From Salvelinus alpinus (Eukaryota; Chordata; Actinopteri; Salmoniformes; Salmonidae): a DNA stretch of 64,000 nt. This document shows, one piece after another, positions 37,501 through 43,500 of the stretch. The stretch covers positions 17,810,905 through 17,874,904 of the forward strand of contig NC_092094.1 of NCBI RefSeq assembly GCF_045679555.1, read 5' to 3'. Made by a program: the position numbers and the translations under genes. Numbering within the stretch: the stretch's first letter is position 1; each line of letters begins with the position of its first letter. The notes beneath the pieces are model-generated. The model did no database searches, was not told the origin of the DNA, and saw only the letters and a list, made by a program, of their open reading frames with translations.

Positions 37501-40500
37501 GGATGCAAAGGAGATCCTTCAAGGAACATCGTTGTTTAGACGCAAATGAGATCCTTCAGGGAACGTAGTTGTTTAGATGCATCATTCTCATCACTATCTA
37601 GTTCTATCTGTCTAGTTCTCAAGAAGCCATTTCGTTCCTCCTTTCACGTCGTCATGTTGCTGGACTTTTGTCTTTGTTGGTTTTAGCAAGTTTGGAGCTA
37701 TATTTCACATGTAGCTTCACTCATTGTTTTGTATTTTACAGGTTCCCGTACCAAATGTCATACCAATGTACGCAGGACAATTTTGTTTGGATCTTAATCA
37801 CAATTGTAAAATATTGTGCAAAGTGATTCCAAATCTAGTCATTTCCAAAACTGTCATTTCCAGCACTCATCTTTTAGAAAGGGATTGTGTTCATAACCTG
37901 GATTAATCTTAATCTTGGTATCAGGAAATGGGGATTAAGAATCCACTGCACAGGAAAAAGTTGCAGTTGGCCCTCAAGTCCTTCAGCACCAAAATGACTG
38001 AGAAATCCTCTGAACTGGACCACATATGGGTCACACGTATGTATCAGGACACGGTAGAGGTCATCAACATATTCACTCAACATTCAGCAAACTTGGTGCT
38101 GTATTCTGTATAATCAATCCGGCAAAATTGGTTGTCATGTTGTTTGTCCTCAAAGGTTGGCTTGATGACATTGGTTTACCTCAATACAAGGGTCAGTTTC
38201 ACGAGGGCAGAGTGGACGGCAGAATGATTCAGTACTTGACAATGGTAAGTACATTCATTGGTTCTCATTGTAGTCTTCCTAGTTGTTGTCTCACTGTCTC
38301 AAGGGACCTCCTTTTTAAATACAGTTTAAATAAATAAATACAAATTAAGCAAACGTGAAAGACTTCTATTTGATGTGTCCCTCAGAATGACCTCTTGTTC
38401 CTGAAAGTGACCAGTCAGCTCCATCATCTCAGTGTGAAGTGTGCTATCCACGTCCTCCACGTCAACAAGTTCAACCCCAACTGCCTAAAGAGAAGACCTG
38501 GAGATGAGGTGAGACGTGTGTGTGCACGTTCTATAGGAGGTTTTCTGTTTACACAATATATACAGTTGAAGTCGGAAGTTTACATACACCTTAGCCAAAT
38601 ACATTTAAACTCAGTTTTTCACTATTCCTGACATTTAATCCTAGTAAAAATGCCCTGTCTTAGGTCAGTTACCACTTTATTTCAAGAATGTGAAATGTTA
38701 GAATAATAGTAGAGAGAAGGATTTATTTCAGCTTTTATTTCTTTCATCACATTCCCAGTGCGTCAGAAGTTTACATACACTCAATTAGTATTTGGTAGCA
38801 TTGCCTTTAAATTGTTTAACTTGGGTCAAACGTTTCAGATAGCCTTCCACCAGCTTCCCACAATAAGTTGGGTGAATTTTGGCCCATTCCTCTTGACAGA
38901 GCTGGTGTAACTGAGTCAGGTTTGTCAGCCTCCTTGCTCGCACACACTTTTTCAGTTCTGCCCACAAATTTTCTATAGGATTGAGGTCAGGTCTTTGTGA
39001 TGGCCACTCCAATACCTTGACTTTGTTGTCCTTAAGCCATTTTTCCACAACTTTGGAAGTATGCTTGGGGTCATTGGTCATTTGGAAGACCCATTTGCGA
39101 CCAAGCTTTAACTTCCTGACTGATGTCTTGAGATGTTGCTTCAATATATTCCTATAATTTTCCTCCCTCATGATGCCATCTATTTTGTGAAGTTGATGCC
39201 ATCTATTTTGTGAAGTGCACCAGTCCCTCCTGCAGCAAAGCACCCCCACAACATGATGCTGCCACCCACGTGCTTCACGGTTGGGATGGTGTTCTTCGGC
39301 TTGCAAGCATCCCCCTTTTTCTTTCAAACATAACGATGGTCATTATTGCCAAACAGTTCTATTTTTGTTTCATTAGACCAGAGGACATTTCTCAAAAAGT
39401 ATGATCTTTGTCCCCATGTGTAGTTGCAAACCGTAGTCTGGCTTTTTTATGCCTGTTTTGGAGCAGTGGCTTCTTCCTTGCTGAGTGGCCTTTCAGGTTA
39501 TGTCGATATATGACTCGTTTTATTGTGGATATAGATACTTTTGTACCTATTTCCTCCAGCATCTTCACAAGGTCCTTTGCTGTTGTTCTGGGATTGATTT
39601 TCACTTCTCGCACCAAAGTACGTTCATCTCTAGGAGACAGAACGTGTCTCCTTCCTGAGCGGTATGACGGCTGCGTGGTCCCATAGTGTTTATACTTGCG
39701 TACTATACAGATGAACGTGGTACCTTCAGGCGTTTGGAAATTGCTGGATGAACCAGACTTGTGGAGGTCTACAATTTTTCAGTTCTTGGCTGATTTCTTT
39801 TCATTTTCCCATGATGTCAAGCTAAGAGGCACTGCGTTTGAAAGTAGGCCTTGAAATACATCCACAGGTGCTCCTCCAATTGCCTCAAATGATGTCAATT
39901 GGCCTATCAGAAGCTTCCAAAGCCATGACATCATTTTCTGGAATTTTCCAAGCTGTTTAAAGGCACAGTCAACTTAGTGTATGTAAACGTCTGACTCACT
40001 GGAATTGTGATACAGTGAATTATAAGTGAAATAATCTGTCTGTAAACAATTGTTGGAAAAATTACTTGTGTCATGCACAAAGTAGATGTCCTAACCGACT
40101 TGCCAAAACTATAGTTTGTTAACAAGAAATTTGTGGAGTGGTTGAAAAACGAGTTTGAATGATTCCAACCTAAGTGTATGTAAACTTCCGACTTCAACTG
40201 TAGCTGTGTTTTGCTGTGACAATATAGGTCAAATGAAGATCCTACATCTGTAGTTGTGTTTTCTCATACATGTTTCATATTTCCTGCTAGAACAAGACTT
40301 CTCCCTCAGAGGTGGTTCAGTGGTCTAACCACAGGGTGATGGAGTGGCTTCGCTCAGTGGACCTGGCGGAATACGCACCCAACCTGAGGGGCAGCGGGGT
40401 TCACGGTGGCCTCATCGTAAGTAACCTGAGGGGCAGTGGGGTGCACGGTGGCCTCATCGTAAGTAACCTGAGGGGCAGTGGGGTGCACGGTGGCCTCATC

Positions 40501-43500
40501 GTAAGTAACCTGAGGGGCAGCGGGGTGCACGGTGGCCTCATCGTAAGTAACCTGAGGGGCAGCGGGGTGCACGGTGGCCTCATCGTAAGTAACCTGAGGG
40601 GCAGTGGGGTGCACCGGGGCCTCATCGTAAATAACCTGAGGGGCAGCGGGGTGCACGGTCGCCTCATCGTAAGTTACCTGAGGGGCAGCGGGGTGCACGG
40701 TGGCCTCATCGTAAGTAACCTGAGGGGCAGCGGGATGCACGGTGGCCTCATCGTAAGTAACCTGAGGGGCAGCGGGGTGCACGGTGGCCTCATCGTATGT
40801 GACCTGAGGGGCAGCGGGGTGCACGGGGGCCTCATCGTAAGTAACCTGAGGGGCAGCGGGGTGCACGGTGGCCTCATCGTAAGTAACCTGAGGGGCAGCG
40901 GGGTGCACGGTGGCCTCATCGTAAGTAACCTGAGGGGCAGCGGGGTGCACGGTGGCCTCATCGTATGTAACCTGAGGGGCAGCGGGGTGCACGGTGGCCT
41001 CATCGTAAGTAACCTGAGGGGCAGCGGGGTGCACGGTGGCCTCATCGTAAGTAACCTGAGGGGCAGCGGGGTGCACGGTGGCCTCATCGTATGTGACCTG
41101 AGGGGCAGTGGGGTGCACGGTCGCCTCATCGTAAGTAACCTGAGGGGCAGCGGGGTGCACGGTGGCCTCATCGTAAGTAACCTGAGGGGCAGCGGGATGC
41201 ACGGTGGCCTCATCGTAAGTAACCTGAGGGGCAGCGGGGTGCACGGTGGCCTCATCGTAAGTAACCTGAGGGGCAGCGGGATGCACGGTGGCCTCATCGT
41301 AAGTAACCTGAGGGGCAGCGGGGTGCACGGTGGCCTCATCGTAAGTAACCTGAGGGGCAGCGGGGTGCACGGTGGCCTCATCGTAAGTAACCTGAGGGGC
41401 AGCGGGGTGCACGGTGGCCTCATCGTAAGTAACCTGAGGGGCAGCGGGGTGCACGGTCGCCTCATCGTAAGTAACCTGAGGGGCAGCGGGGTGCACGGTG
41501 GCCTCATCGTAAGTAACCTGAGGGGCAGCGGGGTGCACCGGGGCCTCATCGTAAGTAACCTGAGGGGCAGCGGGGTGCACGGTGGCCTCATCGTAAGTAA
41601 CCTGAGGGGCAGTGGGGTGCACCGGGGCCTCATCGTAAATACACACGCCACATGACTGAATCAGCCCCTTCTTATACCTTTCTACTGTATATCAGCTCAG
41701 GTACATTTGGATACAGTCAGACATACAGTTCAAGACTCCCTAAAGCCACAATTATTTTGAATTAGTCTATTTTACCAATTCATTCCATCTCAGTGTTCTG
41801 TGTAATTGTCTGTATGTAGCATGCATCTTCCTCTGAATCTTCTCTAATGACCCCTAGATTCTGGAGCCTCGTTTTAACTCAGATACCCTGGCCATGCTGC
41901 TGAACATCCCCCCTCAGAAGACCCTGCTGCGACGTCACCTGGCCACCAACTTCAACATGCTGGTGGGCTCCCAGGCTCAGCAGGAGAAGAGGGAGTTCAT
42001 GGAGTCTTTGGGCTACGCTCCGCTCAGCACTACAGCCAAAGTCAGGGTAAGAGATGACAGTACTGTACTGTAGGACGCCCAGGGCTGAACCACCACCCCT
42101 GTTAGGAGCCCTCTTTTTTTTGTTCTTCCTCTCTCTCTCCCACTCTCTCTCCCACTGCTCCCTCTCTCTGCCCCCCACTCTCTCCTCTTTCTGTCTCTCT
42201 TTCTCTCTCTCACCTCTTTCTCGCTCTCTTTCCCCCTAACCTCCTCCCCTTCCTCATCTCTTTAGAGAGACAGACAACACCTTAATCCTCAGTGTGATAC
42301 CTCAGACCTGGCAAAGCTCTAAGACCACCTAGCAGCTTTGCGTGCAGCAGGCTTTTGTAGCACCAGCTCATGTCTAAGACTCACCGCTTTGTTAAGGCTA
42401 GCAGAAAATGTGCTGAGGAAAATTTTTGCGATAGCATAATGTACTCAGTCAGCACAATTAGGCTTAAAGGAACCTTTTATAGCAACACTGCCCATTTTGT
42501 ACGGTGTTTAGAAATCTGTTCACTGATGATGGTTAAAGGGCTAGAATAGAAGTGACACACAGCTTTACCTCAGTATGTTCATAAACCATGTTCTCTCTGT
42601 GCTATCTTCTGTTCAGCCAAAGAAGTTGGGCTTCTCAAACTTCGGCCACCTAAGGAAGAAGAGGTGTGACGAGTCAACAGACTACATTTGCCCCCTGGAG
42701 GCGGCCCAGGTCCAGGCGGTGCTGAACGGGGCCCACCGGCCCTACTCCGGCTTCAGGGGCCTCAGCCCCATCCTAGACAGAGACCCAGACAGACGGGAGC
42801 AGGTGGGGCCAAACAGCTGATGATGTCAAACTACTGTACCTACCTACCCATCACTACTCAGCTTGCAGCCAATAACCCCATCTCTTCCTGCCATGCCTAT
42901 CCAACCCACCCCAGCACACCCACCTCCACACCCCTCACGTGCCATCATCTAACAATCAACCCCAGCCGCAGGCATGAGCTGCACTCTGGACACTTAAGAG
43001 TGGATGGTGAGTGGGAGAGCTCACCGCTCCTATGTTCTCGGTGGATTCACAAGCCTAGTGTTCAGCTGTGATCTATCACCTCACCCCTTTAATGCAGTAG
43101 GATAATGCTACTATTGTAAACAATATTGTGCATCATTTTAATTATCATTTTAACACCTGTATTTGAGATTCACATAATGGTATTCATCCATTGTTTTTAA
43201 ATATATTCCTAACCAGTAGAAAGTAATGTTGCTGTTTGTCAGACAGTTATGGAATGAACTTGTGCAATATTTGCATATGGAGGAATGCATTTCATATATT
43301 TATGTTGTTAAATAAATTGAAAGAAGTACACATTTTGATGGATTCCAGATTGTGATTACGCACTGTTATTTTCATATATGACTGTTATAATATTTTTATA
43401 GTTAAAGATAACGCTTCAATCAAAGAATCCCTCGTTGTCATTAATTGTAAATAGCATTATCCAAATCCATCAATAAAGATCGTAAGTGTGATAAGTGTTT

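Follow-up and report, generated by a model that had tools for sequence, protein, structure and literature searches.

A minisatellite of 30 units across a 5' splice site in the SAM3 region of Salvelinus alpinus ppfibp2b, apparently for the most part spliced away

The human CBS gene contains a 31-bp VNTR which was reportedly described by Lievers et al. in 2001. This VNTR, named c.1444_1467+7(16_21), represents an amplified exon 13/intron 13 junction (PMC2630376, PMC5188458, PMC1395315): each unit combines the last bases of a coding exon (24 nt, as the name implies) with the first 7 nt of the following intron, every copy repeats the 5' splice site, and many copies carry single-base variants. As we interpret the name, only one of the copies is counted as exonic. 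The array occurs in 16-21 copies, is polymorphic in people and has a reported link to enzyme activity; slips of splicing between its copies would shift the reading frame, because its 31-bp period is not divisible by three. A second related process is treated in a study on introns born by tandem duplication of exon segments containing AGGT, in which new splice-site copies are placed beside the old ones (PeerJ 2016;4:e2272).

We describe here an array in the gene for liprin-beta-2 of Salvelinus alpinus, assigned as ppfibp2b by protein identity, which was found in a window of 64,000 nucleotides, i.e., the whole stretch of DNA analysed. Its units likewise join the end of a coding exon to the start of an intron, with the 5' splice site repeated in every copy and single-base variants in many of them, and because of this like architecture the kind of array should be regarded as already known. 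New relative to CBS are the period, which is a multiple of three (42 bp, or 14 codons), and the number of 30 copies, and the array of ppfibp2b lies within a SAM domain. Compared to the AGGT-duplication introns, no intron has been created, but the 5' end of an existing intron has been extended. A sequence-only reading of the locus knew of no described amplified junction of this type in a SAM domain; this holds at most for the SAM domain itself, given the CBS junction. Besides human CBS, the arrangement was not found in a literature search by titles and opening parts of abstracts, and other junction minisatellites may be in print.

The two exons concerned were located on the plus strand by tblastn of salmonid proteins and by domain match. 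The first one (40291-40416) encodes the N-terminal half of SAM3 and ends with ...GVHGGLI at unit 1 of the array, and the next one (41858-42046) encodes the C-terminal half. If joined, they match SAM3 of liprin-beta-1 (3tad_C) with an E value of 5.8e-47 and reach 53.1 bits with Pfam SAM_2 at a cut-off of 20.5, in agreement with the gene, domain and exon coordinates called in the sequence-only reading. The minisatellite itself extends over 40381-41640 on the same strand, as judged from TRF and a table of its units; TRF reports positions 40381-41638 with a period of 42, 30.0 copies, 96% matches and 0% indels, and the end at 41640 corresponds to this call with the last unit completed. As a repeat, an array of 30 units is far beyond chance. 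Every unit contains 36 exonic and 6 intronic donor bases, i.e., an exon end and an intron start including the 5' splice site, and the feature thus represents an exon-intron junction minisatellite of the CBS-VNTR type. The 30 copies of 42 bp, their start inside the coding exon at 40381 and the repetition of exon-end codons plus donor bases in each of them had all been recognized correctly before. Unit 1 differs from all other units by GTT in place of GTG, and ten distinct substitution types occur across the array, each found in 1-5 units. The unique remainder of the intron (41641-41857, plus strand) ends with the acceptor AG at 41856-41857 and contains ATGACTGAATCAGCCCCTTCTTATACCTTTCTACTG, which is also present in the ohnologue, just 3' of its lone donor.

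The donors are located at positions 40417 + 42(k-1) for unit k, and all of them share phase 0 with the acceptor preceding 41858; any donor is therefore joined by the acceptor at 41857 in one and the same phase, as had been claimed. Donor 1 (40417-40422, plus strand), with the sequence ATC|GTAAGT, is the one implied by the gene models, since the junction GGLI|ILEP is present in all 19 listed S. alpinus ppfibp2b isoforms. Units 2-30 (40423-41640, plus strand), which are probably intronic, contribute 29 more donors at 40459 + 42n, consisting of 24 GTAAGT, three GTATGT (40795, 40963, and 41089) and two GTAAAT (40627 and 41635). Altogether, 25 of the 30 donors read ATC|GTAAGT and five are weakened. 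The amplification of a donor is real, but the motif GT(A/T)A(G/A)T given for it previously has to be replaced by the variants GTAAGT, GTATGT, and GTAAAT. The sequence alone indicates no preference for donor 1, because 24 copies equal it with an identical 9-mer and a GT outside of the array, CAG|GTACAT at 41701, even scores slightly higher (6.0 vs 5.7, as obtained with an approximate vertebrate weight matrix and the U1 duplex energy, not with MaxEntScan).

Read from 40291, frame 0 stays open across all 30 units and, if no donor is used, closes with a TGA at 41653-41655 (plus strand; unit table and frame scan), exactly as first read from the sequence. Note that this open frame is uninformative, because 42 is a multiple of three, the seed was coding and none of the single substitutions of the consensus unit creates a stop. 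On the minus strand, one frame across the array also contains 0 stops and another one 2 stops. By these two controls, the open frame and the absent stops were rejected as proof of coding. The substitution types are 3 synonymous and 7 non-synonymous ones, with 31% synonymous expected; on this small sample of ten types, the substitutions look neutral and give no sign of purifying selection.

In a search of the whole genome, the window's own locus on contig C9 is the sole one with more than one unit. On C15, the likely ohnologue, which the sequence-only reading had proposed to examine for the array, is array-free and contains one unit with the donor TTATC|GTAAGTAC and downstream intron sequence in common, and five further liprin-beta exons (L010-L014) contain one unit each within the 2-3 kb fetched. 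The array is thus a local expansion, since the likely ohnologue and the five additional exons have a single unit. Three protein searches returned one LRGSG unit in 344 of 344 liprin proteins listed, joined to IILE in 338 of them, and the SAM3 of relatives is single and without internal repeat in all of these proteins as well as in the ohnologue and the five paralogous exons.

The predicted proteins of S. alpinus itself conform to the same pattern. One unit is joined to ILEP in all seven listed models of liprin-beta-2b (X2, X3, X7, X9, X12, X13, and X18), and a second S. alpinus assembly contributes 12 listed predicted isoforms, in all of which unit 1 is joined straight to the next exon. No protein with two units, as would be expected from a coding minisatellite, occurs among the 344 listed liprin proteins, which are predicted models and represent the best 120 matches per search of a database clustered at 90%, in which few-unit forms may sit behind representatives. 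The proposal of up to 30 in-frame mRNA forms is therefore not supported, with one unit in 7/7, 12/12, and 344/344 listed predicted proteins, and the alternative offered along with it, namely one used donor with the others as decoys, is the better supported option, as the predicted models join unit 1 only.

We consider it quite probable that a minisatellite was seeded across the 5' splice site, with donor 1 being used and 29 copies being removed as intron. In this char lineage, a 42-bp segment of ppfibp2b that spans the 5' splice site, with 36 bases from the SAM3 exon followed by GTAAGT, would have undergone tandem duplication, and ordinary minisatellite turnover would then have expanded it to 30 units. 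In real RNA, the first donor would mainly be used and close the normal 126-nt exon, while units 2-30 would be removed within an intron of 1,441 nt, so that SAM3 would stay normal. The remaining donors may have a role as competitors or decoys only. If splicing occasionally, and probably rarely, slipped to donor k, SAM3 would gain 14(k-1) residues without loss of the frame, because the unit is 3n, and an adaptive role of the array need not be assumed. Unusual as it is, the array appears to have a precedent, and, with most of it apparently removed by splicing, it does not look like a new route of protein lengthening.

It appears unlikely that the copy number tunes expression, with extra donors binding U1, correct splicing being lowered or varied, and the array length altering the dose of liprin-beta-2b. 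The 24 strong-donor copies inside this intron would be consistent with such an effect, and in one of the above studies on human CBS, a higher number of repeat units is reported to be associated with lower CBS activity; however, the effect is superfluous for explaining the anatomy of the array, and an array-free ohnologue exists. Rather doubtful is also the use of many of the 30 donors, resulting in liprin-beta-2b whose SAM3 is longer by 0 to 406 residues, as might be suspected from the common phase of all donors, the identical 9-mer in 25 of 30 and the frame staying open throughout. The whole-protein SAM_2 score is indeed unreduced (53.1 bits without added units and 53.6, 55.8, and 59.8 bits with 1, 2, and 5 of them), but with added units the best SAM_2 stretch breaks off at profile position 39 of 66, as compared to 63 without them, with the insertion site in the SAM fold placed by the Pfam profile only. 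Moreover, two-unit proteins are missing among the 344 listed, including the seven listed S. alpinus liprin-beta-2b models, although any protein of permitted length bearing the repeat would be expected at the top of two of the searches, whose best scores were 82 and 72 bits, and the ten substitution types give no sign of purifying selection on the array. A graded and heritable length dial, in which slippage among the 25 identical donors produces in each individual a tissue-dependent ladder of liprin-beta-2b proteins with 0 to 29 extra unit copies in SAM3 and a mean length set by the array size, is regarded as hardly likely.

Among equal competing donors, the one nearest to the acceptor is often preferred. 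The donor copies are equal in strength, and use of the last strong one (unit 29, 41593) would shorten the intron from 1,441 to 265 nt, leaving the array mostly exonic and SAM3 disrupted by ~392 residues. This is highly improbable, because it requires an internal exon of ~1.3 kb and should yield proteins of at least ~1,250 residues, none of which is present among the matches listed in a search range of 478-1520. An assembly artefact hiding a true allele with far fewer units is the most improbable reading. Copy-number errors arise easily in tandem arrays, but the ten substitution types are spread over the units, unlike what a simple mis-assembly of just one unit or two would give, and comparable minisatellites occur frequently in this genome, with 18 counted in a sample of 199,900 bases.

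The locus represents a natural experiment on donor choice with 25 identical and 5 weakened tandem 5' splice sites. Because every donor gives an in-frame product, donor use should be readable from RNA without losses by nonsense-mediated decay, and this could reveal by what rule the spliceosome selects one of several equal donors. The ppfibp2b array also joins the human CBS VNTR as a second case. If donor 1 alone is used, the locus is biologically ordinary, yet it still provides a clean test of exon definition.

Presentation of the donor in a hairpin loop was rejected as an additional feature of the array, as the segment 40381-40550 (170 nt) has a z value of +0.94 and 165 of 200 dinucleotide shuffles are at least as stable; no known RNA family was recorded at gathering score in 40200-42100. 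Array-internal acceptors making short introns were judged unlikely, with 8-12 pyrimidines in the 20 nt preceding the AGs of the array vs 14 at the real acceptor.

Minisatellites in this genome amount to 18 per 199,900 sampled bases, and TRF likewise recorded 0% indels in four further arrays of the window, namely all those with 25-59 bp units and at least 5 copies. The same gene contains an intronic minisatellite at 34807-37581 (75 copies of 37 bp), which resembles the array in kind and in its 0% indels by TRF, but unlike the array at 40381-41640 it does not overlap a splice site and begins ~60 bp past the donor of the SAM1 exon.

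The plus strand of the window carries most of a liprin-beta-2 gene, with tblastn matches from ~4.4 kb to 42.8 kb, and the two coding parts of SAM3 lie at 40291-40416 and 41858-42046 on this strand, as judged from the joined exon pair, which matches the liprin-beta-1 SAM3 of 3tad_C with an E-value of 5.8e-47 and scores 53.1 bits against Pfam SAM_2, where the cut-off is 20.5. Of the 855 residues of P0220, a liprin-beta-2b of S. alpinus, 759 align to the window, and we attribute all 21 mismatches in this alignment to its running past exon edges. The array at the end of the first coding part is a real feature, consisting of 30 head-to-tail units of 42 bp (40381-41640, plus strand; 96% matches and 0% indels in TRF), each composed of the exon's final 36 bases and six donor bases. 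The sequence-only reading is thus borne out by TRF and the unit table as to the 30 units and the amplified donor, while its donor pattern GT(A/T)A(G/A)T has to be replaced: ATC/GTAAGT occurs in 25 of 30 units, GTATGT in three (40795, 40963, 41089) and GTAAAT in two (40627, 41635). According to an approximate weight matrix, ATC/GTAAGT, with its C at -1, is of only middling strength (5.7 bits, whereas the strongest donor located close to the ends of the gene's other exons reaches 11.6); by the same approximate matrix, the weakened copies GTATGT and GTAAAT score 2.2-2.8 bits and CAG/GTACAT at 41701, beyond the array, 6.0 bits. The units differ pairwise by a mean of 1.7 of 42 bases; unit 1 is unique in reading GTT where all others read GTG, and unit 30, once extended to its full 42 bases, repeats unit 6 exactly.

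We regard the array most likely as a junction minisatellite in which the first donor is used: splicing would occur at donor 1 (40417-40422), and units 2-30 would be removed as part of the intron. The rival view, a ladder of in-frame forms in which many donors are used and SAM3 grows by 14 residues per unit, is possible, but finds no support in any protein among the matches listed. Three protein searches were performed, with the read-through frame (best 120 of 1442 matches, 8000 candidates scored, lengths ~250-795), an 18-unit construct (best 120 of 7984, 8000 scored, ~440-1400) and the S. alpinus protein plus one extra unit (best 120 of 8000, 8000 scored, ~478-1520). Together they list 344 different proteins, representatives of 90% clusters behind which forms with few extra units could sit, and all 344 contain exactly one LRGSG unit, which is joined to IILE in 338; the remaining six continue with VVSN (2), IVSG (2), IVNT (1) or IDQD (1). 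A protein with repeated units should rank far above the best matches of the read-through and 18-unit searches, which reach 82 and 72 bits, respectively. The listed proteins include seven predicted S. alpinus ppfibp2b isoforms (X2, X3, X7, X9, X12, X13, X18) that were very probably modelled on the window's contig with the array included, all with one unit. The same holds for 12 of 12 listed predicted isoforms from a second S. alpinus assembly, which may be array-free. P0269, translated from a 3.7-kb contig in a read assembly and thus probably reflecting spliced RNA, also has one unit, but resembles Salmo most (98.4% identity with S. trutta) and does not bear on the charr array. Inserting one, two or five units at the junction shortens the best SAM_2 stretch, which then stops at position 39 of the 66-position profile rather than at 63, and the domain is therefore interrupted; the whole-protein score is not lowered (53.6, 55.8 and 59.8 bits, respectively, compared to 53.1 with no added unit), presumably owing to renewed matches to the repeated first half. 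At the same junction, P0030, which is 'isoform 12' of pig liprin-beta-2, and P0018, from an assembled contig, read on as GGLIVSGSVGW... with a truncated SAM3, and the donor of this exon may sometimes be skipped in mammals. The Coregonus gene model P0008 reads GGLIVNTLAMLL here, which fits an intron starting with GTAAAY, as in the last unit of the array.

Frame 0 is indeed open through all units until the TGA at 41653, as noted from the sequence, but this says little about coding, because the period is a multiple of three and the array grew from a coding seed. A stop in this frame cannot arise from the consensus unit by any single substitution. On the minus strand, one frame of the array has no stops and another two, and a frame of 445 residues spans the array; among 5,000 base-shuffled and tiled 42-mers, only 0.1% lacked any open frame among the six. 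The ten substitution types in the array comprise three synonymous and seven non-synonymous ones, with 31% synonymous expected without selection. Likewise, 0% indels are recorded by TRF in the window's other four arrays (units of 25-59 bp, at least five copies) and in 11 of 18 arrays of a genome sample.

A search of the whole 2.37-Gb assembly with the exon plus two units, whose counts are lower bounds, found multiple units only at the window's locus (C9:17810905-17874904). Five further liprin-beta-type exons have one unit apiece, with the donors GTGAGT (one), GTGAGA (three) and GTGAGG (one). The likely ohnologue (C15:37731395), matching over 133 bases, also has one unit. Its junction reads ...GGGGGCCTTATC before and GTAAGTACAAGGGCCCAATGACTGAATCAGCCCCTTCTTATACC after the exon end, and the window continues after its last unit with GTAAATACACACGCCACATGACTGAATCAGCCCCTTCTTATACC; the flanks therefore meet at one unit, and the array is a pure expansion.

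The genome sample (20 evenly spaced 10-kb stretches from four contigs, 199,900 bases) contains 18 minisatellites by TRF (period 10-100, at least five copies, at least 150 bp), or ~1 per 11 kb. Salmonid genomes have several hundred thousand donors, so many 42-bp seeds would overlap one by chance, although selection may remove many of these, and no special cause would therefore be needed for a junction array. The kind of structure has a precedent in a 31-bp VNTR of human CBS, c.1444_1467+7(16_21), with 24 exonic and 7 intronic bases in 16-21 copies (PMC2630376). This VNTR sits where exon 13 meets intron 13, and higher repeat number is reported with lower CBS activity (PMC5188458; table of PMC1395315). 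Both arrays have one architecture, the repeated end of an exon plus the start of its intron; the charr array differs in its 3n period, its 30 copies and its place within a SAM domain.

Further repeats accompany the gene. A 37-bp minisatellite of 75 copies (34807-37581) occupies the intron after the SAM1 exon, beginning ~60 bp from the SAM1 donor, which is not included. We take the stretch at 40169-40200, whose end lies ~90 bp upstream of the SAM3 exon, to be a Tc1-like terminal repeat, and broken minus-strand frames at 38785-39339 and 39392-39778 resemble a Tc1-type transposase. A perfect (TG)60 tract (30013-30146, TRF) ends 13 nt before a coding exon starting at 30147; TG tracts adjoining acceptors affect exon inclusion, as in CFTR exon 9. 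A perfect (CA)51 tract (30739-30841, TRF) lies ~60 nt upstream of a coding exon. Downstream of ppfibp2b, a plus-strand frame of 297 residues (46352-47245) matches Pfam Rab15_effector (PF15208, 127.7 bits) and represents a second gene.
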